A DNA stretch of 36,498 bases, from the IMG/VR virus record IMGVR_UViG_3300036985_006750, positions 1 to 36,498 of that record; one strand, written 5' to 3'. This document shows, piece after piece, positions 4,900-31,686 of the stretch. A program made the translations under genes and the position numbers. The first letter of the stretch is position 1, and each line of letters opens with the position of its first letter. This stretch comes from a virus. A model generated the notes under the pieces. The model did no database searches and was not told the origin of the DNA. It was given only the letters and a program-made list of their open reading frames with translations.

Positions 4900-5439
4900 T
4901 TGTGCGGTGATATTATTGGACTTTTTGAATCTACAGAAAAATGGACTCAACTTATCATTCGTGTGCGCGAAGAACGTCACACGGAATTAGAAGTCCTCGC
5001 AAGGCGCTTCGGCGTCAACCCCGCTGCCATCGTTGAGTTCTGGGTTAACTGGCACCATCTGCGGGAGGAACTTAATGAGGCATTTATTGATTACCGGCGG
5101 AACAGGCTCCTTTGGCGCGCGTATGCTGTCCGCATTGGCCAAGAGAAACGATTTCACAAAGATCAGCATTCTGAGCCGGGACGAGAAGAAACAGGAAGAA
5201 TTGAGATCGCGATTCCCGAATGTGCGGACGATTCTCGGAGACACCCGCTGTCTGGAAACGATGCGCCTAGCTACAAAAGGAATCACCCACGTCTTTCACG
5301 CCGCGGCGCTCAAGCAGGTTCCGAACTGCGAGAGTCACCCATGGCAGGCGATTTTGACCAATGTCGCAGGGACCAGGAACGTCCTACTCGCCGCCGGAGA
5401 GGCAGGGGTCGAACGCGTTATCGTGCTATCGACCGATAA
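4900..5439 (+). CDS. Doubtful ORF upstream of and overlapping the dehydratase
   Basis: An open frame from a TTG at 4900 crosses the 240-base gap and continues out of frame into the dehydratase gene to 5439. Only the first 60 residues look protein-like. They include ERHTELEVLARRFGVNPAAI, which could be a helix-turn-helix. The rest is Arg-rich and typical of an antisense-frame shadow. The region may be a decayed small regulatory gene whose stop was lost, or plain 5' leader. I list it because it is the only content of this gap besides the promoter. Confidence 0.2.
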   Translation: MCGDIIGLFESTEKWTQLIIRVREERHTELEVLARRFGVNPAAIVEFWVNWHHLREELNEAFIDYRRNRLLWRAYAVRIGQEKRFHKDQHSEPGREETGRIEIAIPECADDSRRHPLSGNDAPSYKRNHPRLSRRGAQAGSELRESPMAGDFDQCRRDQERPTRRRRGRGRTRYRAIDR

Positions 5440-5989
5440 GGCCTGTTACCCGATAAACGTGATGGGGATGACTAAAGCGCTTGCTGAAAAGCTCACGCTG
5501 GCAGCTAACGACGAGTTCCCTGACACCGCCTTCGTCTGCACACGCTACGGCAACGTCCTGCGCTCGCGAGGCAGCGTTGTGCCGCTCTGGGAGTCACAAG
5601 CGGCCAGGGGAGAGCCGCTCATGCTCACGAATCCTCGCATGACTAGATTCCTCATGACCCTTGACGACGCTTGCGATTTAGTTCTGCGCGCTTTCGAATC
5701 CACCGAACGGCGGTGCATTTATGTGCTCAAGTCGCCAGCCGCCTACATGGAAGATGTGGCGCATGCAATCTCGCCAAACTTTGTTGTGGGCAAGATTCGA
5801 CCCGGAGAGAAACTCGATGAGACGCTCATCACCAGCGAAGAGATGCGACGAACCGTTGATTGCAGCGACCACTTCCGAATCACCGACAGCCACCAGGCTG
5901 GTGCGATACACCCATTTACCTCAGCCACAACGCGACTCCTCTCCCGTGTTGAGATCCGTGCTATTCTGGATTTAGCAGTGAGGGAATAA
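5075..5989 (+). CDS. NAD-dependent sugar-nucleotide 4,6-dehydratase (CapD/PseB family)
   Basis: A 304-residue extended SDR enzyme. The Rossmann motif is GGTGSFG (8-14). HAAALKQVPNCE (75-86) and STDKA (119-123) are family signatures. The catalytic Tyr of the YxxxK motif is Met130 (M130-x3-K134), the SMK variant known from WbpM/PglF/CapD-like enzymes. Such enzymes turn UDP-GlcNAc into a 4-keto-6-deoxy sugar, the first step to pseudaminic acid, bacillosamine, legionaminic acid and related sugars. I chose ATG 5075 for the strong GGGAGG before it. The gene is the first reliable one of the late operon, and its TAA overlaps the small terminase start. It probably acts with the NeuB, aminotransferase, GNAT and cytidylyltransferase genes elsewhere in the window. 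Confidence 0.85.
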   Translation: MRHLLITGGTGSFGARMLSALAKRNDFTKISILSRDEKKQEELRSRFPNVRTILGDTRCLETMRLATKGITHVFHAAALKQVPNCESHPWQAILTNVAGTRNVLLAAGEAGVERVIVLSTDKACYPINVMGMTKALAEKLTLAANDEFPDTAFVCTRYGNVLRSRGSVVPLWESQAARGEPLMLTNPRMTRFLMTLDDACDLVLRAFESTERRCIYVLKSPAAYMEDVAHAISPNFVVGKIRPGEKLDETLITSEEMRRTVDCSDHFRITDSHQAGAIHPFTSATTRLLSRVEIRAILDLAVRE

Positions 5990-6312
5990 TGGCTAAAACA
6001 TACAGCGTGCCATCTATCGGGCAACGCAAGCTCATCACGATTAGCGAGCTGTGGGAGGTCCTGCAAGCGACCGATGGCCAGCTTCGCAGTCTGGCCGAAG
6101 ACCCGGCACAAGACCAGCTTGTCAAGTTGACCTGTTCTGCGATCATTCAAGCCCGCAAGACGGGAAACTGGCAAACGGTCGATAGCATCCTCAATCGCGT
6201 TATCGGCAAGCCGAAAGAGGCGCTAGAGCTTTCCGGCCCCACGCCTGTTATCATCAAGCGACGCAATGGCGAGGAAATCGAACTAAGTGCGAAGGGAGAA
6301 CCGCGGGAATGA
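5989..6312 (+). CDS. Putative terminase small subunit
   Basis: A 107-residue helical protein. The segment from about residue 50 (IIQARKTGNWQTVDSILNRV, then IGKPKEALELSG) resembles the C-terminal half of phage small-terminase proteins, which end with a helix, a GKPK/R turn and a short beta hairpin (VIIKRRNGEEIEL here). Small terminase recognises the packaging site and regulates the large subunit. The gene lies near the other packaging genes but is separated from the large terminase by about 3.7 kb of inserted genes. It overlaps both neighbours (TAATG and ATGA). Confidence 0.55.
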   Translation: MAKTYSVPSIGQRKLITISELWEVLQATDGQLRSLAEDPAQDQLVKLTCSAIIQARKTGNWQTVDSILNRVIGKPKEALELSGPTPVIIKRRNGEEIELSAKGEPRE

Positions 6313-7757
6313 AACGCCAACCGATAACCGCTTTTGGCGAACTGATGGCGGTCGAACCAACGCCACGAGTTCAAATCGATGCTACCTATGGCATACGCGC
6401 CACGGACTTACTCCAACAGACTGAGAACAGCGCCGCCATTACGAGCGAGAACACCGGCACCGGATTTGAGTTCAAAGTAAGCTCCGGAACAAACGCCGCG
6501 GGCTATGCGCGCATGCAGTCTCGTAGAATCGTGAGGTACAAGACTGGCCAGGGGTCGTTATTCCGATTTACTGGCAGATTCCCCAGCTCAGCAGCAAATT
6601 CAATGCAACGCGTTGGATGCGGCAATCGTGGCACGCATTTCGGTTTCGGTTACGAGGGGACAGAGTTTGGTATCCATTACCACAACGGCGGATTCGTCGA
6701 GATACGGACTCTTACAATATCTGCTGGCGCTGGCGGAAACGAAACCGGAACTGTGACCCTAAACGGCACCGCGTTCACTGTCTCTCTGACCGTAGGAACC
6801 GCGAAGCACGCAGTCTTTCAACTTGCAGCGGCTACCTATGCCGGCTGGGAAGTCTACGGGAATGGCGTCACCGTCATTTTCATAAACCGCCGACTAGGTC
6901 CGAAAGCAGGGACGTTTTCATTTGCCTCAACCGGAACCGCGGCGGGAACCTTCGCGAGAACAAGAGCCGGCGTCGCTGCCAATGAGACGTTTATTCCTCA
7001 GACGTCCTGGAACCTCGACAAAATGGACGGGCAGAGTATGTCGGGGATAACTCTCGACCCATCAAAAGGAAATGTTTTCGAGATCCAGCAGCAATACCTA
7101 GGCTATGGAGCAATATTATTCAGCGTTGAAAATCCTGGACACGGGTGTTTTCAGAATGTCCATCGCATAGAATATGCGAACGCCAACACCTCGCCAAATA
7201 TGACATCTCCCTTCATGCGTCTTGAAATGGAGATCGAGAACACGGGCAACACAACAGCGCTATCGTGCTATTCAGCCTCCCTCGCAGGATTTGTGGAGGG
7301 AGTACAAGTTCCATTGCGAGACTTACGAGGATTCGGAAACAGCAAAGCAAACGTCGGAACCTCGTATACTTCGATCATCTCATTTCGCGTCTCAAGGATA
7401 TTTGCAGACCGAATCAATCGTGCGCCGTGTTGGCCGCATGTTCTGAGTTTCGCCTGCGAGGCTACAAAGCCGGTCGAGTGCATTATGGTCATTGGTCCTA
7501 CCCTCGGCGGAGAGCCAGATTGGACTTTTATCGACTCGGCCGACTCGATCATGGAATACGATAAGACGGCTACCACGAGCACCGGCGGGCGCATCGTTGG
7601 GCAGTTTCTATTGGGAAAGAGCGACAACTTTCAACTCCCGCTACCAGACCACTATGGACACATTTGCATGGACGTTGCAGAGATTGTAACTCTCGCCGCT
7701 CGCGCTACATCAGGAACCGCAGATATCTCAGCGTCATTGTCGTGGGAAGAGGAATGA
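6309..7757 (+). CDS. Large beta-rich virion protein (fibre or adhesin type)
   Basis: A 482-residue protein that resembles a widespread family of phage and giant-virus virion proteins of unknown role. Recognisable segments are FRFTGRFPSSAANSMQRVGC, FGYEGTEFGIHYHNGG, EIRTLTISAGAGG, then PQTSWNLDKMDG and ITLDPSKGNVFEIQQQYLGYG. Composition is Gly/Thr/Ser/Asn-rich with no membrane segments, typical of beta-structured surface proteins. It sits between small terminase and the NeuB-like gene, far from the tail genes. That is an odd place for a fibre and makes it a candidate partner or substrate of the sugar system. Confidence 0.55.
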   Translation: MKRQPITAFGELMAVEPTPRVQIDATYGIRATDLLQQTENSAAITSENTGTGFEFKVSSGTNAAGYARMQSRRIVRYKTGQGSLFRFTGRFPSSAANSMQRVGCGNRGTHFGFGYEGTEFGIHYHNGGFVEIRTLTISAGAGGNETGTVTLNGTAFTVSLTVGTAKHAVFQLAAATYAGWEVYGNGVTVIFINRRLGPKAGTFSFASTGTAAGTFARTRAGVAANETFIPQTSWNLDKMDGQSMSGITLDPSKGNVFEIQQQYLGYGAILFSVENPGHGCFQNVHRIEYANANTSPNMTSPFMRLEMEIENTGNTTALSCYSASLAGFVEGVQVPLRDLRGFGNSKANVGTSYTSIISFRVSRIFADRINRAPCWPHVLSFACEATKPVECIMVIGPTLGGEPDWTFIDSADSIMEYDKTATTSTGGRIVGQFLLGKSDNFQLPLPDHYGHICMDVAEIVTLAARATSGTADISASLSWEEE

Positions 7758-7778
7758 CAAATTATTTTGGAGTAACTT

Positions 7779-8549
7779 ATGCCGTATATTATCGCGGATA
7801 TTGGCTCTAATTTCTTTACTCTGGACGGCGCTGTTCAGAGTATCCAGGCCGCTGCAAAAGCAGGCGCAGAGATGGCCAAGTTCCAATTGTTCAACTGGCT
7901 AGACCTTTACGGAGAAGACTCAGCCGAGCGCAAGATAGAACCTTGGTTGCCGGCGCTGGCTAGTTCCTGCAAACACAACAAGATCGAATTTGGGTGTACC
8001 GCGTTCTCGCCGGAAGGAGTCGCACTCGTCGATCCGTTTGTTGTTAGCCACAAGGTTGCAAGCTCATGCGTGACCCATTTGCCACTTCTACGAGCAATCA
8101 GCGCGGCGAACAAGCCGATTCTCATGTCAGTCGGCGGTTGCACCGTAGACGAAATCAGAGCGGCGCTAGATGTGTTGCATGGAAACGTAGTCACTTTGCT
8201 CTATTGTGCAGCATCTTATCCGTCACGCATGTTCAACCCCGATGCGATTCCAAAGCTCAAGGAGCGTTTCAAACTTCCGGTGGGGTACTCGGACCACACG
8301 ACCGACATCTGGGGCGCTCCGGTGGTCGCAGCGCGTCAGGGAGCGGTTTGTATCGAGAAGCACTTCACGGCCTTTCCGATTGCTGACACTCCCGACCGAC
8401 CTCATAGCCTAACGCCGGATGAATTTCGGCAAATGGTCGACGCGATTCGGTCTCCTATCGAAATTGGTCCGACACCAGAAGAGTATGCTTTTGTGAAGTA
8501 CCACAAGGTCCGCAAGACAGACCTCGGCTATTATAGGATAAGAAAATGA
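7779..8549 (+). CDS. NeuB-family nonulosonic acid synthase, short form
   Basis: A 256-residue TIM-barrel enzyme of the sialic/pseudaminic/legionaminic acid synthase family, which condenses phosphoenolpyruvate with a six-carbon amino sugar. Visible signatures are IADIGSNF at the start, AKFQLF, FGCTAFSPEG, the HKVASSC strand, LPVGYSDHT and EKHFT. Family members are usually about 340 residues with a C-terminal SAF/antifreeze-like domain that completes the partner's active site. That domain is missing here. The usual IAEIG Glu is Asp. It may work with a host subunit or have altered substrate. GGAG lies 6 bases before the ATG, and its stop overlaps the ParB-like gene. Confidence 0.85.
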   Translation: MPYIIADIGSNFFTLDGAVQSIQAAAKAGAEMAKFQLFNWLDLYGEDSAERKIEPWLPALASSCKHNKIEFGCTAFSPEGVALVDPFVVSHKVASSCVTHLPLLRAISAANKPILMSVGGCTVDEIRAALDVLHGNVVTLLYCAASYPSRMFNPDAIPKLKERFKLPVGYSDHTTDIWGAPVVAARQGAVCIEKHFTAFPIADTPDRPHSLTPDEFRQMVDAIRSPIEIGPTPEEYAFVKYHKVRKTDLGYYRIRK

Positions 8550-9079
8550 AGATAGAACAAGTCAAAACGAGTGAATTAAAACCGTACGGTCGCAATAACC
8601 GGAAGCATCCAGCTAGTCAGATCGACAAGCTCTCGAAGCAGATACTAGCGCACGGGTGGGACGTGCCGATCGTCGCCGACAAAGAGCTTGTGATCATCAA
8701 AGGCCACGCTCGCCTGGTTGCAGCGAAGAAGCTGAGGCTCAAGACGGTTCCCGTTATCGTGCGCGCAGACCTAACGCCGGAGCAGTGCAACGCCGCTCGG
8801 CTTGCGGATAACAAGCTTGGAGAGCTGGCCGAGATAGACATGGAAGCCATCCAAATGGAACTTGATTCGCTCAAGGCCGCAGACTTTGACCTCGACCTGA
8901 CCGCGTTCGATAACTGGACTATTGGCGAGCAGGTGCCGTTTCAGCCAGACCTTCCAGATGAGGATGAGGGAGAGTCAGGTGACAAACCGTTGGTGCTTCG
9001 CGTTGAGTTTGACAACGACGATGAGCGCCAGCTCTTATTCTTTGAACTGCGCGACCGTGGGTTGAAGGTGAAAGTATGA
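8546..9079 (+). CDS. ParB/Srx-fold domain protein
   Basis: A 177-residue protein. Residues 1-100 form a ParB N-terminal-like domain: VKTSELKPYGRNNRKH, QILAHGWDVPIV, IIKGHARLVAAKKL (the GHxR box) and a CNAARLADNKLGE segment. The C-terminal part is acidic (DEDEGESGD) with a final beta/alpha unit. In phages such proteins usually sit beside DNA methylases and the large terminase, as here. They may bind CTP/ATP or nick DNA, and may help packaging. Coupled by ATGA to both neighbours. Confidence 0.8.
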   Translation: MKIEQVKTSELKPYGRNNRKHPASQIDKLSKQILAHGWDVPIVADKELVIIKGHARLVAAKKLRLKTVPVIVRADLTPEQCNAARLADNKLGELAEIDMEAIQMELDSLKAADFDLDLTAFDNWTIGEQVPFQPDLPDEDEGESGDKPLVLRVEFDNDDERQLLFFELRDRGLKVKV

Positions 9080-10008
9080 GTGAGTGGGGAATCCCATACA
9101 TGGGCAGCAAAAGCGGCATTGCTGCATCTCTTGCCCTAAACTTTCCAAAGGCCGCGCATTTCTATGACCTATTCGGTGGTGGTTTCTCCATTAGTCATTA
9201 CATGCTGGCCAATAAAGCAAATAACTATGGTAATTTTCACTACAATGAAATCAAAACCCATATTGCTGACGTTGTGCGCCACGCTATCGCTGGAGAGTTT
9301 AACTACTCCACATTCAAGCCGCCGTGGGTTAGTCGGGAAGAATTTCACGCTAAGAAGTATACCGACGGTTATGTGGCAAGCTGTTGGAGTTTCGGAAACA
9401 ACGGAGAGACCTATCTATTTGGAGAAGAGATTGAAGAGTATAAACGTGCTATGCACATGGCTGTAGTGTTCGATGAGTTTGACGAGATAGCAGAAAAGAC
9501 TCTCGGATTTACAAAGTGGCCAGCGATTGCCAAGACAATTAAACAGCGCAGGTTTTACTTGCGGCAGCTACTAGAACACTACAGAAAAACAAAGATACCG
9601 CATCACTTGCATAAGTATTTGTCAGAGAAGCAGTTGGAGCAGTTGCAGCAGTTGGAGCAGTTGGAGCGGTTGGAGCGGTTGCAGCAGTTGCAGCAGTTGC
9701 AGCAGTTGCAGCAGTTGGAGCGGTTGACTATCACGTCGATGAGCTATGAGCAAGTCGAGATACTGCCTAACGCTGTTGTCTATTGTGATATTCCTTACTC
9801 TGGCACTGCTGAATATGGAAACACGTTCTCACATAAAGTGTTCTTTGATTGGGCTGCCTCTCGCGAGTTTCCAGTATTCATATCTGAATATCATGTGCCA
9901 GACGAGCGTTTTAAGCTGGTATATTCTGTAGACAAGCGGTGTTTGCTAACGCAAGAGGGAGAGTCAAACAAAAAGAAATCAGAGAAGCTGTACTGGAACG
10001 GTAAGTGA
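9076..10008 (+). CDS. D12-class adenine-N6 DNA methyltransferase (Dam-like)
   Basis: A 310-residue enzyme. IPYMGSKSG (6-14) and DLFGGG (31-36) bind S-adenosylmethionine. The catalytic DPPY box reads D238-I-P-Y241, followed by SGT, a variant I recall from other phage Dam-like enzymes. It would methylate adenine in a short DNA target and protect phage DNA or mark it for packaging. A low-complexity stretch of Gln/Leu/Glu/Arg triplets (residues 186-217) is inserted where Dam enzymes carry the target-recognition region. The gene overlaps ParB-like and terminase genes. Confidence 0.83.
   Translation: MSEWGIPYMGSKSGIAASLALNFPKAAHFYDLFGGGFSISHYMLANKANNYGNFHYNEIKTHIADVVRHAIAGEFNYSTFKPPWVSREEFHAKKYTDGYVASCWSFGNNGETYLFGEEIEEYKRAMHMAVVFDEFDEIAEKTLGFTKWPAIAKTIKQRRFYLRQLLEHYRKTKIPHHLHKYLSEKQLEQLQQLEQLERLERLQQLQQLQQLQQLERLTITSMSYEQVEILPNAVVYCDIPYSGTAEYGNTFSHKVFFDWAASREFPVFISEYHVPDERFKLVYSVDKRCLLTQEGESNKKKSEKLYWNGK
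9631..9726 (+). repeat. 9-bp tandem repeat inside the methylase gene
   Basis: About ten units of (C/G)AG-TTG-(C/G)AG or CGG-TTG-GAG encode QLE, QLQ, RLE and RLQ triplets, a 32-residue Leu-every-third helix. The period of nine bases keeps the reading frame, so copy number can vary without breaking the enzyme. Confidence 0.85.
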
Positions 10009-11291: not shown

Positions 11292-11620
11292 TTTATGAGT
11301 ATAAATGTTTGCGCTGCGAAAGAGAATTTGACATCTACAAGCCAATGTCTCAGGCATCAGAGCCGGAAGTTTGCGAGTGCGGCGGGGCAGGGGCCAGGCT
11401 CTACCGCAATAGTAGCGGATTCTGCGGCGAGAAAGTGACACACGCGGAATACAATCCAGCCCTAGGATGCGTGGTACAATCGAAAAGGCATCTCAAAGAC
11501 ATCTGCGACCGAAAGGGTCTCATCGAAGTTGGAAACGAATCGCCCGACAAAATTCATTCTGCAATGACTTCAGAGAATCAATCCATACGAGCTAAACGCT
11601 ATGAGGACGCCGACAAATGA
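11288..11620 (+). CDS. FmdB-type zinc-ribbon protein
   Basis: A 110-residue protein from ATG 11288 (an in-frame ATG lies 6 bases upstream). It starts MIYEYKCLRCEREFDIYKPM and continues with CECGGAG, giving two CxxC/CxC zinc knuckles of the FmdB/regulatory zinc-ribbon kind. The remainder is charged and lacks motifs. Such small ribbons are common between terminase and portal genes in environmental phages; their job is unknown. Its stop overlaps the portal start. Confidence 0.7.
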   Translation: MIYEYKCLRCEREFDIYKPMSQASEPEVCECGGAGARLYRNSSGFCGEKVTHAEYNPALGCVVQSKRHLKDICDRKGLIEVGNESPDKIHSAMTSENQSIRAKRYEDADK

Positions 11621-13395: not shown

Positions 13396-13457
13396 GCTAT
13401 GATTTAGCATCTTAAATTCCATTTCTAATTTATGAAATCACAACGCAAGGGGAAACC

Positions 13458-13772: not shown

Positions 13773-13798
13773 TTAAATCATCAAAGGACTTATTAAAT

Positions 13799-14632: not shown

Positions 14633-14642
14633 GAGCATCAAA

Positions 14643-15563
14643 ATGGCTTTGACCTATGACCAAATCTCAGCGATCACTGAGAAGAAATACATGCCGAAAC
14701 TGGTAGACAACATCTTTGACTCGAATCCTCTGCTCAAGAGGCTCAAGGCAAACAGCTACGAGAAGGTTGACGGCGGAGAAAGAATCGTTCAGCCCCTAAA
14801 CTATGCGCAGACCACTGCGAGCGGATGGTACTCCGGAGCCGAAACGCTTAGCGTAACGGCCTCAGAAGAAATTTCGGCGGCGGAATATACTTGGAAGCAA
14901 CTCTATGCCTCCCTTGTGATTTCCGGCCTTGACGAGAAGAAAAACTCTGGTGACGCGGCGATTCTGAATCTTGTGAAGCAGAAGACGATGATCGCGGAAA
15001 AGACGATGAGCGACAAGCTCGGAACCGGGCTATTCAGCGCTGGAACTGATGCAAAATCGATTATCGGTCTCGCAAACATTGTTGGAACCGCGAACACGAT
15101 TGGCGGCATCTCCCAGACCTCCTATTCGTGGTGGCAGGGTCAAGTCGACAGCACGACTACCACGCTGTCGCTTGCAGCAATGCAGTCGATTTTCAACCTG
15201 GCGACTATCGATAACGACAGCCCCTCGGTTGGTATCACGACTCGCGCAATCTACAACCTCTATTACGGCCTCCTGCAACCACAGCAGCGGTTTATGGACT
15301 CCGAATCTGCTAAGGGCGGATTCTCGTCGCTGATGTTCAATGGCAAGCCCATCTTGGTTGACTCGCACTGTACCACGGCTGGCCTGTATTTCCTGAACGA
15401 GAAATACCTCCACCTCTACGTCCATTCGCAGGAAGACATGAGATTCGAGCCGTTCCAGAAGCCGACCAACCAGAATGTGAAGATTGCGCAGATTTTCTGG
15501 CTTGGAGCTTTCGGATCTTCCAATAACCGCATGCACGGAAAACTTTCGGCTATCACCGCCTAA
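14643..15563 (+). CDS. Major capsid protein
   Basis: A 306-residue HK97-fold type capsid protein. The N-terminal arm reads KKYMPKLVDNIFDSNPLLKR, followed by GGERIVQPLNYA, SGWYSGAETL and AAEYTWKQLYASLVISGLDE. This matches a capsid family I know from podovirus- and siphovirus-like phages. SYSWWQGQVDS near 160 and a beta-rich C-terminus complete it. GGAG lies 6 bases before the ATG. Being abundant, it is the first candidate to test as substrate of the glycosyltransferase encoded two genes downstream. Confidence 0.88.
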   Translation: MALTYDQISAITEKKYMPKLVDNIFDSNPLLKRLKANSYEKVDGGERIVQPLNYAQTTASGWYSGAETLSVTASEEISAAEYTWKQLYASLVISGLDEKKNSGDAAILNLVKQKTMIAEKTMSDKLGTGLFSAGTDAKSIIGLANIVGTANTIGGISQTSYSWWQGQVDSTTTTLSLAAMQSIFNLATIDNDSPSVGITTRAIYNLYYGLLQPQQRFMDSESAKGGFSSLMFNGKPILVDSHCTTAGLYFLNEKYLHLYVHSQEDMRFEPFQKPTNQNVKIAQIFWLGAFGSSNNRMHGKLSAITA

Positions 15564-15577
15564 CAAGGAGAATTGAG

Positions 15578-16051
15578 ATGACTGTTTATTCAAGCTTGGC
15601 AAACTTTGCCGGAAAATCCATGGTGACCTTAACCCCTGGACCAAATGATCCAGAGGTTGGCACCCGCATGCGCGACGGCGACGAGGAGTACATCTTCGTT
15701 TACAACGCCGGCGGCGAGACTATCACCAAGGGCGACCTCTGCACCGTTTCTGCGGTCTCTGGCTACTCCGTGACTCTCTCGACTACCACTGGCGTAGATA
15801 TCGCTGTTGGTCTCTGTAAGCACGCCACGATGGCTACGGCTACCTACGGTTGGCTTCTGACCAAGGGCTTCAGCCAAATCAACATGCACGCAGATAACAG
15901 CGTTGCCGCTGGCGGCGTTCTGGTGTGTGGAGATCTGGGCAAGTTCTTCAACAAGACGATTGCTACCGGCTTCCCGAGCCCCGTAATTGCAAAGGCGATG
16001 GCAGCGATTGCTTCCGGAGCTTCTGGTACTGCGTTCCTCAACATTTATTGA
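15578..16051 (+). CDS. Capsid decoration/stabilising protein
   Basis: A 157-residue beta-rich protein right after the capsid gene with a strong AAGGAG ribosome-binding site. EEYIFVYNAGGETITKGDLC and VGLCKHATMATATYGWLLTKG resemble small head-decoration proteins that cap the HK97 shell. It is Gly/Ala/Thr-rich without charge clusters. Its gene is followed 12 bases later by the Maf-like glycosyltransferase. Confidence 0.6.
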   Translation: MTVYSSLANFAGKSMVTLTPGPNDPEVGTRMRDGDEEYIFVYNAGGETITKGDLCTVSAVSGYSVTLSTTTGVDIAVGLCKHATMATATYGWLLTKGFSQINMHADNSVAAGGVLVCGDLGKFFNKTIATGFPSPVIAKAMAAIASGASGTAFLNIY

Positions 16052-16063
16052 TGGAGTTTATCG

Positions 16064-17074
16064 ATGCGCGTTGCAGAACTTAATCTAGAGTTTTCTCCCT
16101 ACATCACCGAAGCGCCAACAGCGCCTAAAGCGATGTACGACCAGGCTTGTTCAAACGATGCCCCGACTATCGCGTCATGGCGCGAGCAGTGGCTTCGACA
16201 GTTCAAGGCGAATCATGAATCCTTCGGGCCTTTCGCTGAGAAGGGCATAGGCAAGTTGTTTGGAATTCATCAGGGTAAGACCGCTATCATCGCTGGCAGC
16301 GGTCCCTCCCTGGCCTACAACGGCTCTCTTTTGCAGCGCAAAGGTGGGGCAGTGGTCGTATCGGCACTCCATAACTTTCACTTCTTCGAAGACAACGAAG
16401 TTGACGTGGATTTCTACGTTACTCTCGACGCCGGAGAAGTTACGATTGAGGAGATTTCCGAAGGCGGCAGCCACGACGCCGAATGGTATTGGGAGAGAAC
16501 CAAGGGAAAGACTCTGATCGCGTATTGTGCATCTCATCCAGAATTGTTGAAAAAATGGCGGGGCAATATCTATTTCTTCAACTGTCCGATTCCAGACCTC
16601 GCGCTGATGGCTGAAATCGACCAGATTGAAAAGTTCAACACCTATCTATCGTCTGGAGGTTGCGTTCTCGGGGCATGCCTGTACTTCGCAAAGGGCGTTC
16701 TGGGTTGCGCAATGACAGCTTTTGTAGGTGCTGATTTCTCTTTTTCATACAGCTCCAAGTTCCATGGATGGGACTCAAAATATGACAAGGACGTTGGAGC
16801 ATGTATGCGAGTAACCGACATCTACGGGATTCCGGTTAAGACGTGGCCTAGCTATCACAACTTCAAGGTGTGGTTTGATTGGGTCGCTTCTACGGTTCCT
16901 GGGGTTTATCTGAATTGCACCGAGGGCGGCACGTTTGGCGCTTACAATAGCGGCAATATATTGGCAGTTAGGCAGATGGAATTGAAACAACTTGTCGAAA
17001 TTCTGAACATGAACGAACATCTGAGAGACCAATGCTTGCGACCAAGTGAGAGCGAGCGGAAGGTACTCTTCTAG
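16064..17074 (+). CDS. DUF115/Maf-type glycosyltransferase
   Basis: A 336-residue protein of the MptE-like/DUF115 family, whose bacterial members (Maf) put nonulosonic acids on flagellin. Signatures are AIIAGSGPSL (74-83), the strand VDFYVTLDAG (113-124), the loop SSGGCVLGACLYFAKGVLGC (196-215), FVGADFSF (220-227) and the late segment NCTEGGTFGA. The N-terminal domain is short compared with flagellar Maf proteins. It lies between decoration and small virion genes, on the same strand with tight spacing, so it is expressed with the head. With NeuB- and SpsF-like genes present, transfer of an activated nonulosonic acid to a virion protein is a natural guess. Confidence 0.75.
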   Translation: MRVAELNLEFSPYITEAPTAPKAMYDQACSNDAPTIASWREQWLRQFKANHESFGPFAEKGIGKLFGIHQGKTAIIAGSGPSLAYNGSLLQRKGGAVVVSALHNFHFFEDNEVDVDFYVTLDAGEVTIEEISEGGSHDAEWYWERTKGKTLIAYCASHPELLKKWRGNIYFFNCPIPDLALMAEIDQIEKFNTYLSSGGCVLGACLYFAKGVLGCAMTAFVGADFSFSYSSKFHGWDSKYDKDVGACMRVTDIYGIPVKTWPSYHNFKVWFDWVASTVPGVYLNCTEGGTFGAYNSGNILAVRQMELKQLVEILNMNEHLRDQCLRPSESERKVLF

Positions 17075-17083
17075 GAGAAAGAA

Positions 17084-17350
17084 ATGGCATATACGGTCAC
17101 AAAACACAATTCCGTGTTTGGAAACAAAAGAACTATCGGCATGGAAATCACTGCCGATGCTGCAACGCAAGCGGTTGAAACTGGTCTGAGCTGGATTGAG
17201 TTCATGAGTGTTGGGCCTTCTTCAATGAACTCCTCCAACATCCATATCGCTACCAATTCCAACTGCTCCGGAGTTTCTACGCCGGGAACCATCGGAATTA
17301 CTGGTTGCACCAGCGGAGATAACTTCTACGTCACGGTGTTTGGGAGGTAG
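17084..17350 (+). CDS. Small virion-associated protein
   Basis: An 88-residue protein beginning MAYTVTKHNSVFGNKRTIGM and ending FYVTVFGR, a beta-structured family I recall in the head region of many phages. DAATQAVETGLSWIEFMSVG forms the core. No charged clusters or membrane segments. The start follows GGAGAAAGAA closely after the glycosyltransferase gene. Probably a minor capsid or head-completion protein; not firmly assigned. Confidence 0.65.
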   Translation: MAYTVTKHNSVFGNKRTIGMEITADAATQAVETGLSWIEFMSVGPSSMNSSNIHIATNSNCSGVSTPGTIGITGCTSGDNFYVTVFGR

Positions 17351-17352
17351 TG

Positions 17353-17700
17353 ATGAGCTACGGACCATATTCAGTTTTCACAAGAAACCTCGCGAGCAAT
17401 ACAACGCTAACGAGTGCTTTGGATCTCGGTCGCGCATGGAAGAACGTCTATCTAGAGATTCCGACGATGACATCTGGGACCGACGTTTACATCCAAGCTG
17501 CGGCAACGCTAGACGGCACGATGCGGCGAGTGTACCAGCGAACAAATTCAGCCACGGCGCAAAGCAATGTGTGGATTGTCAAATCCAACATCACTCAGGT
17601 CTTGGTCGATTTGCCTGCTGGATTGCGATATGTTGCTGTAGAGATATCAACGGCAATGACACAAACATCTGTTAATTTCAACGTTCATTGTTCAGACTAA
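17353..17700 (+). CDS. Putative minor virion protein
   Basis: A 115-residue beta-rich protein from ATG 17353, preceded by GGGAGGTAGTG (a GTG three bases upstream is a less likely start). It contains TLTSALDLGRAWKNVYLEIP, then DVYIQAA and RRVYQR, and ends with alternating strands. This reads like a jelly-roll-type virion component. It shares size and position with the protein before it. No family name can be given. Confidence 0.6.
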   Translation: MSYGPYSVFTRNLASNTTLTSALDLGRAWKNVYLEIPTMTSGTDVYIQAAATLDGTMRRVYQRTNSATAQSNVWIVKSNITQVLVDLPAGLRYVAVEISTAMTQTSVNFNVHCSD

Positions 17701-17714
17701 TTATGAGGTGATTT

Positions 17715-18559: not shown

Positions 18560-18563
18560 CGTT

Positions 18564-22646: not shown

Positions 22647-22655
22647 GGGGTAATT

Positions 22656-23081: not shown

Positions 23082-23082
23082 C

Positions 23083-24189: not shown

Positions 24190-24198
24190 GGAGCCGCA

Positions 24199-26322: not shown

Positions 26323-26325
26323 ACC

Positions 26326-27312
26326 ATGGCATATCCAAGCGTAACTTACACTTTTACCAACGGGACAACTGCTTCAGCGACGGAGGTGAATCAAAACTTT
26401 TCCGATTTAATCTCTGGTTTAAGCGCTGGCACAAAGGATATTTCAATCGCAGCCCTCACCGTTGCCGGCGCCGCATCGTTCAACGGAACGGTTACCCTCG
26501 GCAATGCCACGGGCGATGATATCACGGTAACGGGCTATGTTGCGTCGGCGATCATCCCTAAAACAGATGATACTTATGACTTAGGCACCGCAGCTCTCGC
26601 GTGGCAAGATGCCTATTTTGATGGAGCGGTGTATACCGACACAATCAGCGAACTGACCGGCGCTGCTGGTGTTACGATAGACTCCTTCAAAGCGAAAGAT
26701 GGTGGATTTACCGCAACGCACTCAACGCACACGATGGTAAGTTCCGGCGCTGCAAATTCGATATATACCGAATTTGGTTATCAAGGCGGCACAACCGAGC
26801 GAGCACAAATTGGATTAGCATGCGATACGAACGGCATGATTACCGGTGCAACCTTAGGCGACTTGTGTCTGTTGGCGAGAAACGATGATGTGCTGATTTC
26901 TGGAAATGACGGGGCTAGCATCGGACTCCAAGTGACCGGCGGAAATGCGGTTTACCTCGGACCCGCCGCTGGAGGCATTACCCATGTTTTCTACGGCGGA
27001 CACTATACGAGCACCGTGACAACCGCCACAGCCAATACTTCCTTTACCGCAACGTTTTCCAACACGAACTACTATAACGTCGATACCAACGGCAGCATTA
27101 CAATTACCTGCCAGAATATCGGCTCCGGCTTTACGGGGTGGATTACCGTTAGGAGCACGGCTGTTGGGGCGGTGACAATCACCCTGTCTCAGACGGACGC
27201 GTATGTACAGGCTACATCATTTGCCCTCGCGGCCGGAAAATATGCCGTGATAACTGTAGTGGATACTGGCCGGGCGTCGGTGTTCGTTACTTATGTAACA
27301 GACCTTGCATGA
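26326..27312 (+). CDS. Tail fibre / receptor-binding protein
   Basis: A 328-residue protein. The N-terminus (TYTFTNGTTASATEVNQNFS) is a common virion-anchoring start of tail fibres. Then come short beta repeats (LTVAGAASFNGTVTLGNATG) and DDTYDLGTAALAWQDAYFDG, a motif found in very many phage fibres. The C-terminal half is Gly/Thr/Asn-rich beta and is probably the receptor-binding part. No chaperone gene or enzymatic motif follows. It is a surface-exposed candidate for sugar modification. Confidence 0.75.
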   Translation: MAYPSVTYTFTNGTTASATEVNQNFSDLISGLSAGTKDISIAALTVAGAASFNGTVTLGNATGDDITVTGYVASAIIPKTDDTYDLGTAALAWQDAYFDGAVYTDTISELTGAAGVTIDSFKAKDGGFTATHSTHTMVSSGAANSIYTEFGYQGGTTERAQIGLACDTNGMITGATLGDLCLLARNDDVLISGNDGASIGLQVTGGNAVYLGPAAGGITHVFYGGHYTSTVTTATANTSFTATFSNTNYYNVDTNGSITITCQNIGSGFTGWITVRSTAVGAVTITLSQTDAYVQATSFALAAGKYAVITVVDTGRASVFVTYVTDLA

Positions 27313-28196
27313 AAGCTATCGCGATACTCTTCCTCAGCGCTTGCGGCGTTCTCGTTCCGGTTAAGCCAGGAGTGCCGCAAGTTGTCTCCGAACGGCTCAA
27401 GACTCAGATTGGCCGCATGACCCCAACGCTGGCTTGGACCTGCAACGGCATGGCTCCGGCTAGAAGTCGAGAGGTTGACTGCAACACCGAGGGGGATGCG
27501 GTGAGCATGACGGGATGGACTCTTTTATATGGTAATCTTGGATCATGGCAGTTAATTTTGGACAGCATCGATGAGAACGGGAGACCGTGGCGCAATCCGG
27601 CGCGAGTCGGAGGAACCGACCCAAATTCGTTCTCGCGAGACCAAATGCTCGGCTTGCTTGAAGCCACTGTCTCTTCGGGAGATAGAACAGGGCTACAATC
27701 TGTTGTGCGGCATTTGCAGGCGCAAGGACGCCTTTGCCCAGGAGACGATAGGTGCAACCTCACCGGAAGCATTATCGAGCTGTGGCGGCTCGTTCTCGGG
27801 CAAGAAGTCATTGAAGCTGAGAGGGCTGTAAACGGATGGACCACCGAGGTTGAGGCTGCAACGGTTCCACCAGGCTATCAAGCGCATTTGGTGTCGCGTA
27901 AAATCATGTTGCACGCAGAACTTGGAACCTTGACTAGCTCATACAGCAAAGCCGCTGCAACACTTGCGCGCCGATTCCCTAAGTCTTTGTTCCTTCGTGT
28001 TACGAATGCCGTCGCCAATGGTGGAGACTTTGTTGCGATTGCTGATGACCTTGCGGCTTGCATGGAAACATGGCAGGGGCCGGGGAACGCTTGGATAGGG
28101 GAAGAAATTGAACGCGGCTGTCAAACTTTTAGCTACGGTCACGAGTATGTCTCGCTCGCTAAATATCTGTTACAATCAAAGGAACTAATGCAATGA
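27309..28196 (+). CDS. Predicted lipoprotein of a conserved phage family
   Basis: A 295-residue protein with a short lipoprotein signal: MKAIAILFLSACG, lipobox LSAC with Cys12. The mature part has paired cysteines, a FSRDQMLGLLEA motif near residue 107, a CPGDDRC loop, and a segment GYQAHLVSRKIMLHAEL. This order of motifs recalls a phage/prophage family of unknown function that looks like an all-helical toroid. Exported by the infected cell, it could act at the envelope, in lysis or as exclusion factor. ATGA overlap with the fibre gene. Confidence 0.55.
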   Translation: MKAIAILFLSACGVLVPVKPGVPQVVSERLKTQIGRMTPTLAWTCNGMAPARSREVDCNTEGDAVSMTGWTLLYGNLGSWQLILDSIDENGRPWRNPARVGGTDPNSFSRDQMLGLLEATVSSGDRTGLQSVVRHLQAQGRLCPGDDRCNLTGSIIELWRLVLGQEVIEAERAVNGWTTEVEAATVPPGYQAHLVSRKIMLHAELGTLTSSYSKAAATLARRFPKSLFLRVTNAVANGGDFVAIADDLAACMETWQGPGNAWIGEEIERGCQTFSYGHEYVSLAKYLLQSKELMQ

Positions 28197-28396
28197 CAGC
28201 ACAAAAGGCAATCCAAATGTCGGAAGTTTTGCTAAAACTCCTAGTCCCGCTGTTCATCGCAGTCTGCTCTTTTGCGCTGCAATCTGTTCGTGGGGAATTG
28301 CGCGAACTCCGAACGGAGATAAAAGCCATGCGCTCAGAGAACCAGGCGCTACTCGTTCGGGTTGTCCTCCTTGAATCTTCCACCAAGAAGCTGTAA
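28193..28396 (+). CDS. Single-TM coiled-coil protein
   Basis: A 67-residue protein. A hydrophobic segment at residues 11-30 (VLLKLLVPLFIAVCSFALQS) is followed by a Leu/Glu/Arg heptad helix to the end (LRELRTEIKAMRSENQALL). This is the shape of an inner-membrane spanin or of small holin-like proteins. It is coupled by ATGA to the lipoprotein gene before it, so the two may form an envelope-spanning pair. The endolysin lies 3.5 kb downstream. Confidence 0.55.
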   Translation: MTAQKAIQMSEVLLKLLVPLFIAVCSFALQSVRGELRELRTEIKAMRSENQALLVRVVLLESSTKKL

Positions 28397-28401
28397 CCTT
28401 G

Positions 28402-28418
28402 CCTCATAACTTATGAGG
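28402..28418. promoter_or_regulatory. Palindrome covering a ribosome-binding site
   Basis: CCTCATAA-c-TTATGAGG is a perfect 8-base inverted repeat around one base. Its right arm contains the GAGG of the ribosome-binding site of the gene at 28425. In RNA it could fold and hide that site; as DNA it could bind a dimeric protein. The same right arm (18 identical bases) precedes the gene at 17715 without the left arm. Confidence 0.45.
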
Positions 28419-28424
28419 TGATTT

Positions 28425-28625
28425 ATGATTGTTATTCCGTTATCGATTCTTTTGGCCGTGTCTGTTGCCACCAATGTGTTCTTTATTCTCAGACCCAACT
28501 CCAAATCACGACGAGAAAACAGCCGAACCGCTGAAGAACTGCTTGCAGATTTGCTGCGCGGTACTGCTATTGTCAGAATCGACCGGATAGCCCCGAGCGA
28601 CGTGCTGTTGAGGTCGCCACGATGA
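28425..28625 (+). CDS. Small membrane protein with conserved C-terminal motif
   Basis: A 66-residue protein. Residues 2-22 are a hydrophobic helix (VIPLSILLAVSVATNVFFIL), followed by a basic turn and TAEELLADLLRGTAIVRIDR and LLRSPR at the end. I have a memory of similar small phage proteins with a membrane anchor and the end (I/V)RI(D/E)RI-x-P-x-D-(V)-x-LRSPR; their role is unknown. The gene is coupled by ATGA to the oxidoreductase of the sugar cassette. Confidence 0.55.
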   Translation: MIVIPLSILLAVSVATNVFFILRPNSKSRRENSRTAEELLADLLRGTAIVRIDRIAPSDVLLRSPR

Positions 28626-29215
28626 AGATTTGCATTGCGGGCTACAACGGAAACATGGCGGCGCGGTACAAAGCGGTCCTAACCTACCTCGGTCATGAGC
28701 ACTGCGGATATGACGTCGGCGAGACTATTCCAGAGGCCGACGGCTACATAATCGCAACGCCGACCCATACGCACAAAGCGCAGGTGTTCGCGTTGGCCAG
28801 ATTCGGAAAGCCGATTCTCTGCGAGAAGCCAGTATCCAAATCGATGGCTGATTTGCACCACATCAAAGCAGTTTGCGAGGGCCACGGCACGCCGTTTCAA
28901 GTCGTAATGCAATACGCATACCTTGCAGACAGCTCACGCTCTGGCAGGTCGCACTACGATTATTACAAACACGGAAATGACGGCCTTTGCTGGGATTGCT
29001 TCCAAATTATCGCGCTAGCGAAAGAACGGGTGACTCTTTGCGAATCTAGTCCAGTTTGGCAGTGCATAATTAACGGCAAGAAGATCAATCTGGCTGAGAT
29101 GGACATGGCTTATTGCGTGATGATTGCCGAATGGCTGAAAGACCCAAATGCGCAGACGTGGGATTACATCGAAACCGCTCATCAGAAAGTTATTGACTAT
29201 GCCTCCTCAAATTAA
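28622..29215 (+). CDS. Gfo/Idh/MocA-family oxidoreductase, compact form
   Basis: A 197-residue protein. The Rossmann start KICIAGYNGNMAARY and the family segment IIATPTHTHKAQV with CEKPVSKS (the EKP motif that places the catalytic Lys) are clear. Normal members have about 330-350 residues with a large C-terminal beta domain; most of that is missing, and only an alpha/beta remnant follows. Enzymes of this family oxidise or reduce sugars and sugar nucleotides using NAD(P). First gene of a four-gene cassette of sugar enzymes, overlapping the next by 17 bases. Activity on a nucleotide sugar is likely, but the truncation makes it uncertain. Confidence 0.75.
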   Translation: MKICIAGYNGNMAARYKAVLTYLGHEHCGYDVGETIPEADGYIIATPTHTHKAQVFALARFGKPILCEKPVSKSMADLHHIKAVCEGHGTPFQVVMQYAYLADSSRSGRSHYDYYKHGNDGLCWDCFQIIALAKERVTLCESSPVWQCIINGKKINLAEMDMAYCVMIAEWLKDPNAQTWDYIETAHQKVIDYASSN

Positions 29216-29921
29216 CATCCTCATTGGAATCCAGGCCAGATCGACATCGACCAGGCTTCCCAATAAAGTATCAGAAGTTCTAGATGGCAGAACGATTTTG
29301 GAGCATTGTATTGACTCCTGTAAACGGTCCGCCGACTATCTGAACCGATACACTTTTCGGACCGGAATAGCCGTCCAGTTGGCGCTTCTAGTTCCCATAG
29401 GGGACCCGCTAGCTCAGACCTGGTCGCGCAGAATCCAAATTGTCGAAGGTTCAGAATCAGATGTCCTCTCGCGCTACGTCGAAGCCACCAAACGGTTTGG
29501 ATCCGACTACATTGTCAGGATTACTAGCGACTGCCCGCTGATTCCTCCGTTTGTGATTTCAAAACACATCAAACTGGCCGTTATGAACCGCTTTGACTAT
29601 GTCTCGAATGTTGACCCTCGCTTCAGAACTTCGATTGACGGAATAGACTGCGAGGTTTTCTCACAGAAGATGATCGAGTGGGCCAACGCCAACTCAGAGA
29701 CTAAAGAAGAGCGCGAGCATGTCACTCCAGCGTGCCGACTGCGACCACCGCCATGGGCAAAGATTGGGGCGGTAATCGGGTTCTTCGATGAAAGCCATGT
29801 CAAATTGTCGGTAGATACTCGCGAAGATTTGGATTTGATTCGCGCTCAGTTTGAGGCGGTACAGCAAAAGGTACAAGCAGCCGAAAGGCTTTATGGTAGG
29901 GATTGTGTGCATAGGTTCTAA
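29199..29921 (+). CDS. SpsF/NeuA-type cytidylyltransferase
   Basis: A 240-residue nucleotidyltransferase. ILIGIQARSTSTRLPNKV (N-terminal nucleotide-binding loop), LEHCIDSCKRS, then GSESDVLSRYVEATKRFGSD and YIVRITSDCPLIPP are the signatures of the SpsF/COG1861 group, related to CMP-sialic acid synthetases. It would charge a 3-deoxy or nonulosonic sugar with CMP from CTP. The start MPPQINILIG lies 17 bases inside the preceding gene. Together with the NeuB-like gene it supplies the activated donor for a glycosyltransferase. Confidence 0.82.
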   Translation: MPPQINILIGIQARSTSTRLPNKVSEVLDGRTILEHCIDSCKRSADYLNRYTFRTGIAVQLALLVPIGDPLAQTWSRRIQIVEGSESDVLSRYVEATKRFGSDYIVRITSDCPLIPPFVISKHIKLAVMNRFDYVSNVDPRFRTSIDGIDCEVFSQKMIEWANANSETKEEREHVTPACRLRPPPWAKIGAVIGFFDESHVKLSVDTREDLDLIRAQFEAVQQKVQAAERLYGRDCVHRF

Positions 29922-29953
29922 GTTATTTGTAAACTTATTGGAGGATTTAATAG

Positions 29954-31153
29954 ATGAAAGACTTTGCTAATCACAGGCGGGCGCTCCAAAGCATTGCGCA
30001 AGGGGCGCTTACCAACTCAAAGAGGCCGGAAAGCCACGTTATGGGAGTTTACCCGACCCACGTCGGGATGGGACTTGGGGCTACCTGTTTCGGGGAAGAT
30101 GGCCAGCGCTATATTGACTACATTTGCGGCCTAGGAACCAATCTGCTCGGCTGGGGCAATTCCAAAATAGCCTGGGAAATCCAAAAGCGGTTGCACCATG
30201 GTTATTGTCTCTCCTTCGGAACGAATACCGAGATCGAAGCTGCCGAGCTGCTGAAAGAGTTTTTCCCATTCGTCGAGTCGGTCAAGTTTCTCAAAACCGG
30301 GACCGAGGCGTGCATGGCCGCGGTTCGCATAGCTCGCGCCGTTACGGGGCGGAAGGTTATTCTCTCAGAGGGCTACCACGGCTGGTCGGACGGATTTGTC
30401 AGTCTAACCCCTCCCGCTAGTGGATGCGTGCGTGGCGAGGACATGCGATTTTACAAGCTCATGAACTTTGAACAGATCAACAAACTTGTAGCTGCGGTTA
30501 TTGTTGAGCCTGTGATAACCGACACATCAGACGCGAGAAGAAAATGGATAGAAGATTTGCGAGAGAAGTGCACAAAAGAAGGTGTGCTATTGATATTTGA
30601 CGAGATAATTACGGGATTCAGATACGAGAATTTTGGAGTTTGCAACCAGTGGAACATCGTCCCGGATCTAATTTGCCTTGGAAAGGCTTTGGGTGGGGGA
30701 ATGCCCTTATCAGCAGTCGCGGGCAAATACGTCACGATGAATGACCCCAGCTATTTTGTCAGCTCAACGTTCGCCGGAGAGATTCTTTCTCTAGCAGCTT
30801 CCATTGGATTTATGAGAGAGATACGCAACAAACATGCTAACATTGTTACCGCAGGCCGTAAATTTTCCGAGGACTTTAATAAGCTGAATCCAAGGGTTCA
30901 AATCGCTGGCTATGCAACTAGAGGGTCTTTTATTGGCGACCCTCTTGACAAGGCGTTATTTTTCCAGGAGGCGTGCGCTGCGGGAATCCTGTTCGGGCCT
31001 AGCTGGTTTTTCTGTGATTCTCACATTGGCTCTGAAGACATCGTCCTAGCGTCTTGCACGCAGATATTGAAACGATTGGACCGCGGAGAATTGAAACTGC
31101 GAGGGGAAATGCCAGCAGCTCCCTTTGCACAGAAGGTGAGGGAAGGTAAATGA
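29954..31153 (+). CDS. Class III aminotransferase (glutamate-1-semialdehyde aminomutase-like)
   Basis: A 399-residue PLP enzyme. GTEACMAAVRIARAVTGR and EGYHGWSDGF are cofactor-binding signatures, LIFDEIITGFR holds the Asp that contacts the pyridine nitrogen, and Lys244 in LGKALGGGMP forms the Schiff base. HemL itself makes aminolevulinate, but homologues sit in many surface-sugar loci and put amino groups on keto sugars. The context (oxidoreductase, cytidylyltransferase, acetyltransferase) favours the sugar role. GGAGG precedes the ATG by 9 bases. ATGA overlap with the next gene. Confidence 0.85.
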   Translation: MKDFANHRRALQSIAQGALTNSKRPESHVMGVYPTHVGMGLGATCFGEDGQRYIDYICGLGTNLLGWGNSKIAWEIQKRLHHGYCLSFGTNTEIEAAELLKEFFPFVESVKFLKTGTEACMAAVRIARAVTGRKVILSEGYHGWSDGFVSLTPPASGCVRGEDMRFYKLMNFEQINKLVAAVIVEPVITDTSDARRKWIEDLREKCTKEGVLLIFDEIITGFRYENFGVCNQWNIVPDLICLGKALGGGMPLSAVAGKYVTMNDPSYFVSSTFAGEILSLAASIGFMREIRNKHANIVTAGRKFSEDFNKLNPRVQIAGYATRGSFIGDPLDKALFFQEACAAGILFGPSWFFCDSHIGSEDIVLASCTQILKRLDRGELKLRGEMPAAPFAQKVREGK

Positions 31154-31686
31154 TTAACTTTGGCCATGGAGTAACTTTGGTTCCGGTTCTCGAAAAACAG
31201 TTAGGCCAAATGTTGGTGTGGAGAAACGACCGGAGGGTCTGGAAGTGGTGTAGACAGAACTCTGTAATCTCTGAAGCGGAGCATATTGCTTGGTTTCGGT
31301 CGCTGCTGGGAAATCAGAAGATCAAGATGTTCTCAATCTGCGATTCTGAGGGAAACTTTGTTGGCGTGTGTGGGTTGACCGACATCGACCGGGTGAACTC
31401 TCGCGCCGAGTTTTCTCTCTATCTCGGTCCAGACTTCCAAAACAAAGGGCTAGGCAAGTCCGCACTAAAGACGCTGGTCGACCACGCATTCATTGACGAG
31501 AATCTTCATTCTGTCTGGGGAGAATCGTTTGCTGACAATCCTGCATGCAATTGCTTTGAAAGTATCGGGTTCAAATTAGACGGTGTGCGCAGAGGTTTCT
31601 ACTTCAGAAACGGCGATTATATTGATGCTCGGTTGTATAGCATTTTTCGGGAGGATTGCGAATGGTCTGGGTCTCACTTATCCTGA
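31150..31686 (+). CDS. GNAT N-acetyltransferase (PseH/RimJ-like)
   Basis: A 178-residue GNAT enzyme. LVWRNDRRVWKWCRQNSVIS is the N-terminal pattern of the PseH/RimJ type, FVGVCGLTDID is the central strand, and YLGPDFQNKGLGKSALKTLV is the acetyl-CoA loop (Q-x-x-G-x-G). It ends with NPACNCFESIGFKLDGVRRG. PseH acetylates the 4-amino group of the pseudaminic acid precursor, and this protein is the likely counterpart after the aminotransferase. Last gene of the cassette; it overlaps the start of the following membrane protein gene by 25 bases. Confidence 0.82.
   Translation: MINFGHGVTLVPVLEKQLGQMLVWRNDRRVWKWCRQNSVISEAEHIAWFRSLLGNQKIKMFSICDSEGNFVGVCGLTDIDRVNSRAEFSLYLGPDFQNKGLGKSALKTLVDHAFIDENLHSVWGESFADNPACNCFESIGFKLDGVRRGFYFRNGDYIDARLYSIFREDCEWSGSHLS

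Follow-up and report, generated by a model that had tools for sequence, protein, structure and literature searches.

The window analysed here, a single IMG/VR virus record of 36,498 bases (IMGVR_UViG_3300036985_006750), carries seven sugar-related open reading frames, all on the plus strand and set amid a run of virion genes: a nucleotide-sugar dehydratase, a NeuB-type synthase of nonulosonic acids (NulO, the sialic-acid-like sugars), a compact Gfo/Idh/MocA oxidoreductase (Gfo), an SpsF-type cytidylyltransferase (SpsF), a class III aminotransferase, a GNAT acyltransferase and a Maf-like transferase (table 1). An earlier, sequence-only reading of this DNA had named these seven genes, and the Pfam, NCBIfam and PDB matches agree in placing each of them, at the positions given, in the family proposed or in a close one. 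Judging from its terminase, portal, capsid, head-closure, adaptor, replication initiation protein and amidase endolysin genes, the window probably derives from a short-tailed phage, and its major capsid protein (MCP) belongs to a family related to Mx8 and similar phages. No DNA-level match was found in known phages, and isolate phages gave no match for the Maf-like, SpsF or Gfo proteins. There are, however, about 40 related IMG/VR contigs of 14-40 kb that share the plan of the window.

Table 1. Sugar-related genes of the window, followed by neighbouring virion and associated genes
Feature	Position	Strand	Match or observation
Nucleotide-sugar 4,6-dehydratase (short-chain dehydrogenase/reductase, SDR; PseB/CapE type)	5075..5989	+	Polysacc_synt_2, E 2e-80
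NeuB-type NulO synthase, TIM barrel	7779..8549	+	PF03102, E 9e-49
Maf-like (DUF115/MptE-like fold) transferase, capsid-linked	16064..17074	+	PF01973, 63 bits (cut-off 34.6)
Compact Gfo/Idh/MocA oxidoreductase	28622..29215	+	PF01408, 40.3 bits (cut-off 24)
SpsF-type cytidylyltransferase	29199..29921	+	PF02348 (CTP_transf_3), 50.6 bits (cut-off 22.6)
Class III (HemL-like) aminotransferase dependent on pyridoxal phosphate (PLP)	29954..31153	+	PF00202, E 9e-39
GNAT N-acyltransferase, PseH-like	31150..31686	+	NCBIfam PseH, 80.1 bits
MCP	14643..15563	+	phrog_9953, E 4e-63
Small protein between MCP and Maf-like gene, probably decoration protein; candidate acceptor	15578..16051	+	Position conserved
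Small Ser/Thr-rich protein; candidate acceptor	17084..17350	+	Right after Maf-like gene, 30 contigs
Second small Ser/Thr-rich protein after Maf-like gene; candidate acceptor	17350..17700	+	25 contigs
Fibre-like protein	26326..27312	+	Family in 36 contigs; precedes sugar block in nearly all relatives
Small one-helix membrane-type protein	28425..28625	+	Conserved at head of sugar block, 26 contigs

The dehydratase starts at the ATG at 5075, the frame being open also from a TTG at 5033. Its best NCBIfam model is PseB (268.5 bits; cut-off 407.75), followed by FnlA (254 bits), both scores lying under the respective cut-offs, and its best PDB match is CapE (4j2o), then FlaA1. The active-site motif of the window protein, STDKACYPINVMGMTK, has a methionine, as in CapE and FnlA, whereas most relatives have a tyrosine, as in PseB. 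Since CapE and PseB yield the same inverted 4-keto product, this difference need not alter the chemistry. The window NeuB scores 166.5 bits against PF03102 (cut-off 22.1), which matches all 28 phage copies; the equivalog level is not reached (NeuB_NnaB, 152 bits with a cut-off of 400; PseI, 132 with a cut-off of 340). Its best PDB matches are spsE (1vli) and PseI (8h2c), DAHP synthase being marginal only. The residues K34, Q36, K92, Y147, P148, S171-D172-H173, E193 and H195 are invariant in the 28 phage copies; five of them (K34, K92, H173, E193 and H195), which by comparison with NmNeuB we take to be the catalytic lysines and the metal-binding histidines and glutamate, are also retained in the aligned cellular copies.

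The genes from Gfo to GNAT follow one another near the end of the window. The EKP motif and Rossmann glycines of Gfo are retained in 29 copies, and its predicted model (predicted local distance difference test, pLDDT, 97.2) has as its best PDB matches the WlbA/WbpB dehydrogenases (E 2e-8), which act on the uridine diphosphate (UDP) sugar UDP-GlcNAcA. SpsF, whose reading frame is listed from 29148 and likely starts at the ATG at 29199, carries the motifs QARSTSTRLPNK and RITSDCP, agrees with the family motif QARxxSxRLPxK and best matches the cytidylyltransferase 6oew in the PDB (E 2e-18); it is predicted to use cytidine triphosphate (CTP) and an ulosonic acid. The aminotransferase (133.8 bits with PF00202; cut-off 30.5) retains the PLP-lysine motif LGKALGGG. 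Its matches in the phage collection were set aside, as they had a generic host-type HemL/ArgD/BioA look and many of the records were seemingly bacterial. The PseH model, which scores below its cut-off of 93.1 bits with the window GNAT (next-best NCBIfam model, 45.8), matches all 28 phage GNAT copies.

The seventh gene encodes the transferase. The 23 phage copies of this Maf-like family, every one with the PF01973 domain, are 41-56% identical to the window protein and share 48 invariant columns; both the NeuB-like and the Maf-like assignments hold in profile searches, with catalytic or invariant residues retained across relatives. An AlphaFold model of the Maf-like protein (pLDDT 92.8) best matches the Magnetospirillum Maf glycosyltransferase 5mu5 (E 1.8e-10, probability 1.00, template-modelling score by query 0.54), and then archaeal MptE/HPPK and the human sialyltransferase ST8SiaIII. 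With 336 amino acids, against 632 in 5mu5, it does not have the full flagellin-Maf architecture. The gene is present in all 66 of the loci found through the MCP that extend at least 2.6 kb beyond it, and over all loci holding both genes it starts 92-669 bp after the MCP. The enzyme is predicted to transfer a NulO from cytidine monophosphate (CMP) to protein, and its neighbours supply four candidate acceptors: the MCP, the decoration protein and the pair of small Ser/Thr-rich proteins encoded after the Maf-like gene. The decoration protein has no Pfam match and a weak PHROG match, and is so labelled from its position alone; the two small proteins have no family match, and the first has a serine plus threonine content of 26% in the window copy. 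There is no family in PHROGs for either the Maf-like protein or the phage NeuB; distant MptE-like proteins occur in other uncultured phages.

The relatives were first found by scanning IMG/VR with an alignment of the window SpsF and four cellular copies, which gave about 30 viral contigs (14-40 kb) at 38-53% identity; IMG/VR scans using NeuB or the dehydratase singly yielded no matches, because these two proteins diverge too much to be caught by short exact patterns. NeuB is present in 24 of the 30 best contigs found with SpsF, the six without it being partial contigs of 14-29 kb. Among the records found with SpsF, 33 of 34 hold the aminotransferase, 29 the dehydratase, 24 the Maf-like gene and 24 the MCP; Gfo and GNAT each occur in 30 of the 32 relatives that were read. 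A sample independent of the sugar genes was obtained by scanning IMG/VR with an MCP alignment alone. This yielded 18 contigs that are 30 kb or longer, 12 of which had been found by SpsF as well. NeuB together with an intact aminotransferase occurs in 17 of them, SpsF in 16, GNAT in 16, Gfo in 14 and the dehydratase in 14, and several of the absences coincide with contig ends. The co-occurrence of these genes in related phages, a check set beforehand, is therefore very strong, and over the 40-odd relatives the sugar genes are as widespread as those for portal, terminase and capsid. The observation made in the sequence-only reading is thereby upheld, with more behind it than had been claimed.

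The order of the genes is nearly constant. It begins with NeuB, terminase, portal, scaffold, MCP, decoration protein, the Maf-like gene and two small proteins, with head closure further on, and it ends with fibre, small membrane protein, dehydratase, Gfo, SpsF, aminotransferase and GNAT. In most relatives NeuB lies just before the terminase, about 20 kb from SpsF, and the dehydratase counterpart stands directly before Gfo; in the window and in the relative G001 the dehydratase is upstream of NeuB. All six synthesis genes are adjacent in G033, in the order dehydratase, NeuB, Gfo, SpsF, aminotransferase and GNAT, and G036 is nearly identical. The synthesis genes are hence organized as one block plus a displaced NeuB, with the dehydratase displaced too in the window and G001. 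The sequence-only reading had described the pathway as dispersed, which is true of NeuB and of the window dehydratase and untrue of the four to five genes that form the block. It had also seen in this scattering a sign of co-evolution with the particle, an argument weakened by the existence of the block and by the location of NeuB inside it in G033 and G036.

The long co-evolution itself is nonetheless borne out, as the pathway has been kept together with the virion genes over a long divergence, down to about 50% identity within the lineage. In the aminotransferase tree all 40 phage copies group together to the exclusion of the 20 cellular ones (support 95). A single NeuB clade takes in 34 of 37 phage copies (support 99). 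SpsF likewise gives a phage clade distinct from the cellular copies (support 86), whose two "other virus" members, L050 and L053, are G033 and G036 over again. Sugar-gene distances between pairs of contigs correlate with the distances for capsid, portal and terminase (Mantel r 0.24-0.62, p <=0.013). These results suggest a single ancient acquisition passed down along with the virion genes, or a history much like that. There is one exception, G044, which has no NeuB, dehydratase, Gfo, SpsF or GNAT. Its aminotransferase is a remnant (L353:8140-9090) in which the GK of the PLP-lysine motif has become GA and inner segments have been lost, and its Maf-like gene is intact (L352:17190-18206). G044 is a natural knock-out of the pathway: the synthesis genes have been lost together, as a single pathway predicts. 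The small membrane-type protein at 28425-28625 has its counterpart in G044 too.

For a cellular comparison we used the 80 nearest SpsF loci in GTDB genomes, at 40% identity or less and within the fetched flanks. NeuB occurs in 67 of them, a PseB-like dehydratase in 68, the class III aminotransferase in 20, a Maf-like gene in 12 and Gfo in 10. These cellular relatives sit in NulO loci, most of which also hold DegT and PseG. The class III aminotransferase stands beside DegT and PseG in 9 of the 15 long cellular loci, and, because it so often has this company, it may serve to introduce a second amino group rather than simply replace PseC. A few cellular aminotransferase loci are, like the phages, without DegT and PseG (L312, from Candidatus Methanoperedens, and L316). 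A Halorussus aquaticus plasmid has the phage-like order Gfo, SpsF, class III aminotransferase, with NeuB, SDRs and GNAT in the same locus; a Pseudosulfitobacter plasmid encodes an SpsF-aminotransferase fusion among pse genes; and the cellular loci that combine Gfo, SpsF, aminotransferase and NeuB resemble those of the phages in having a PseB-like SDR close by. In opposition to the phage genes, the cellular ones are located on chromosomes or plasmids, mostly with DegT and PseG, and in most of the aligned copies their NeuB is full length with a SAF-type tail.

The well-known pathways for pseudaminic and legionaminic acids (pse/leg) that operate with Maf in Campylobacter and Aeromonas share with the phage system a PseB-type dehydratase, a PseH-like GNAT, NeuB/PseI, a CMP transferase and a Maf-type transferase, and their O-glycosylation of protein in the cytoplasm is a further likeness. 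The phage set differs in having neither PseC (DegT) nor PseG, and in relying on a compact Gfo, on an aminotransferase of class III and on a transferase of SpsF rather than PseF type; moreover, the genes are phage-borne and the transferase adjoins the capsid gene.

The gene families, the retained catalytic residues, the conservation throughout the lineage, the capsid linkage of the transferase and the joint loss of the synthesis genes are established by the sequence comparisons, whereas the substrates, the identity of the sugar, the succession of steps, the acceptor and the advantage for the phage are inferred. We consider it probable, with somewhat better than even confidence, that this lineage encodes a variant NulO pathway and a Maf-type transferase, and that it most likely uses them to glycosylate a protein of its own particle in the host cytoplasm. 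A more specific version, which we hold tentatively and at not quite an even chance, is that the pathway is a non-canonical one, with Gfo and the class III aminotransferase taking the place of PseC and with no PseG, that the Maf-like enzyme is dedicated to the capsid, and that the virions are coated with a sialic-acid-like sugar that is possibly chemically new. The claim of the sequence-only reading that the phage makes, activates and attaches such a sugar thus survives in kind, by virtue of the families and their conservation; the canonical order of steps that it had assumed does not.

The substrates, the order of the steps and the acceptor could be as follows. The dehydratase would produce a 4-keto-6-deoxy UDP-amino sugar. 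WbpB, WbpE and WbpD oxidise, transaminate and acylate another UDP-sugar, and by analogy Gfo, the class III aminotransferase and GNAT likely place an N-acyl amino group on the phage sugar by the same succession of oxidation, transamination and acylation. Release of the sugar from UDP, the PseG/NeuC step, would have to be supplied by a host enzyme or by one that has escaped recognition; NeuB would then join the six-carbon sugar to phosphoenolpyruvate and SpsF would activate the product with CTP. Finally, the Maf-like enzyme would move the sugar from CMP onto a Ser/Thr-rich protein on the capsid side, be it the MCP, the decoration protein or one of the two small proteins. The flagellin Maf works on its target protein while this is still in the cytoplasm, ahead of export (PMC4065374), and the capsid enzyme would presumably act on protein in the same compartment.

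Several observations weigh against this interpretation. In the 29 phage contigs searched there is no DegT/PseC (PF01041), although all 14 controls have it, and neither PseG (TIGR03590) nor a NeuC-type epimerase (PF02350), both models scoring in control genomes. The route is consequently not the canonical Pse/Leg one, and the earlier supposition that only the hydrolase/epimerase step is missing has to be abandoned, since the PseC-type aminotransferase is not found either. No complete route from UDP-N-acetylglucosamine can be drawn. Many NCBIfam scores of the window proteins lie below the equivalog cut-offs. The window NeuB is without most of the SAF domain, of which there is left only the remnant LGYYRIR; this aligns with the Arg-bearing part of the tails of other copies. 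Pfam SAF is found in 5 of the 28 phage NeuB proteins and a SAF-like tail is visible in many of the rest; a solved relative of 290 amino acids (6ncs) likewise seems not long enough to accommodate a complete SAF domain. A frameshift is an unlikely cause of the short window NeuB, the tail in G011 (L148) being shortened likewise. As for the transferase, the MptE-like fold also covers pterin pyrophosphokinase, so that the fold alone is no proof of sugar transfer; the Maf-like query, used in a search for prophages and hosts, gave no matches in GTDB genomes; and the evidence on the acceptor is gene position only. The retention of the Maf-like gene in G044 after the loss of the pathway implies either that a host CMP-sugar is used there or that the transferase is not strictly tied to the phage sugar.

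Among the alternatives, one that we consider unlikely is that the phage sugar is put onto the host surface (lipopolysaccharide, capsule or a surface protein) by the Maf-like or by host transferases, and there hides the receptor or blocks superinfection. Many cellular relatives of the genes belong to surface-polysaccharide loci, and the sugar block follows a fibre gene and is accompanied by a small membrane-type protein. There is also a precedent in Acinetobacter, where phage-borne genes change the pseudaminic acid of the capsule; the prophage genes epaA/epaB act on a NulO (PMC12053666), but are not described as making or activating one. Such a role would, however, ill explain why the transferase is fixed beside the capsid gene in all 66 loci; in addition, no polymerase, flippase or further glycosyltransferase was recognised in the window, and a late position among virion genes would be poor timing for the masking of a receptor.

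It is similarly unlikely, in our estimation, that the enzymes make a different sugar for virion or host, not a nine-carbon NulO but a Kdo-like (3-deoxy-D-manno-octulosonic acid) or another aminated ulosonic acid. No PseC, PseG or NeuC was found in the phage contigs, the combination of class III aminotransferase, Gfo and SpsF is not a textbook set, some of the cellular loci that have this set (L312, L316) are also devoid of DegT and PseG, and the SpsF matches reach KdsB models too. Nonetheless, NeuB matches the sialic and pseudaminic acid synthases with DAHP synthase only marginal, and the PseH-like GNAT and PseB/CapE-like dehydratase point to the 2,4-diacetamido-hexose branch.

The modification of host flagellin, the target put forward by the sequence-only reading, is improbable because the transferase is capsid-linked and of half the size of the flagellin enzyme. 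Its best fold match is a Maf of Magnetospirillum and Maf-like genes do occur in a minority of the cellular SpsF loci; but no flagellar gene was recognised in the window, and modifying flagellin would bring no clear gain to a lytic cycle. The notion that one phage happens to hold seven unconnected genes, as cargo or as imports in decay, to which the shrunken SAF domain and the isolated dehydratase of the window might lend some colour, is already refuted by the recurrence of this set, in unchanged order, across dozens of contigs, the retained motifs, the lineage clades and the joint loss, and its probability is negligible.

A variant NulO pathway acting on the phage's own virion would have some parallels. 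We know of no phage-borne NulO synthesis route described for the virion glycosylation of mycobacteriophages, which are unrelated to the present uncultivated lineage. That phage enzymes glycosylate capsid and tail proteins is nevertheless established in that group, and in Che8, Corndog and Myrna a phage glycosyltransferase acts on capsid or tail proteins, as is proposed here (PMC12363180, citing Freeman et al. 2023). No paper on a NulO-making phage was found in the open-access literature searched. The marine virus AG-345-L05 (Kyanoviridae, MH319754) has, like the window, an SpsF-type transferase, an aminotransferase and a SAF-less NeuB, there side by side; it differs in belonging to another virus family and in having a DegT-like aminotransferase and a single cluster, and its NeuB and SpsF are 28% and 19% identical to those of the window. 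The same segment (L017:2840-7295) also encodes an SDR and a small possible glycosyltransferase, so that NulO-type genes occur in a further lineage of phages.

Whole sugar pathways are seldom carried by phages. In this lineage the six synthesis genes and the transferase match the terminase and capsid genes in constancy, and thus behave as core genes rather than transient cargo. If the virions are indeed sugar-coated, the benefit to the phage could lie in adsorption, stability or evasion, each a testable reason for such a coat, and a Maf-type enzyme would have been found with an acceptor other than flagellin. As for the cellular loci that share this set of enzymes, they may define an undescribed NulO route.

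Some minor features of these genomes deserve mention. The fibre-like protein has a serine plus threonine content of 24%, with a weak C1q match in a relative. A group of proteins of about 70 amino acids (f42), assigned to no known family, lies beside the aminotransferase in G009, G010, G011, G017 and G044, its place being filled by other small unassigned reading frames in other relatives. Between NeuB and the terminase, the window encodes a protein with a ParB N-terminal domain (8546-9079), and ParB-like genes recur near the terminase of the relatives. A D12-type adenine methyltransferase (9076-10008), for which no relative was found in the related contigs, contains a QLEQLERLQQLQQL repeat at 9571-9741 with a weak match to leucine-rich repeats. 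Finally, after the lysis region, the minus strand (33076-33825) encodes a secreted-looking protein with the HELGH motif of zinc proteases.

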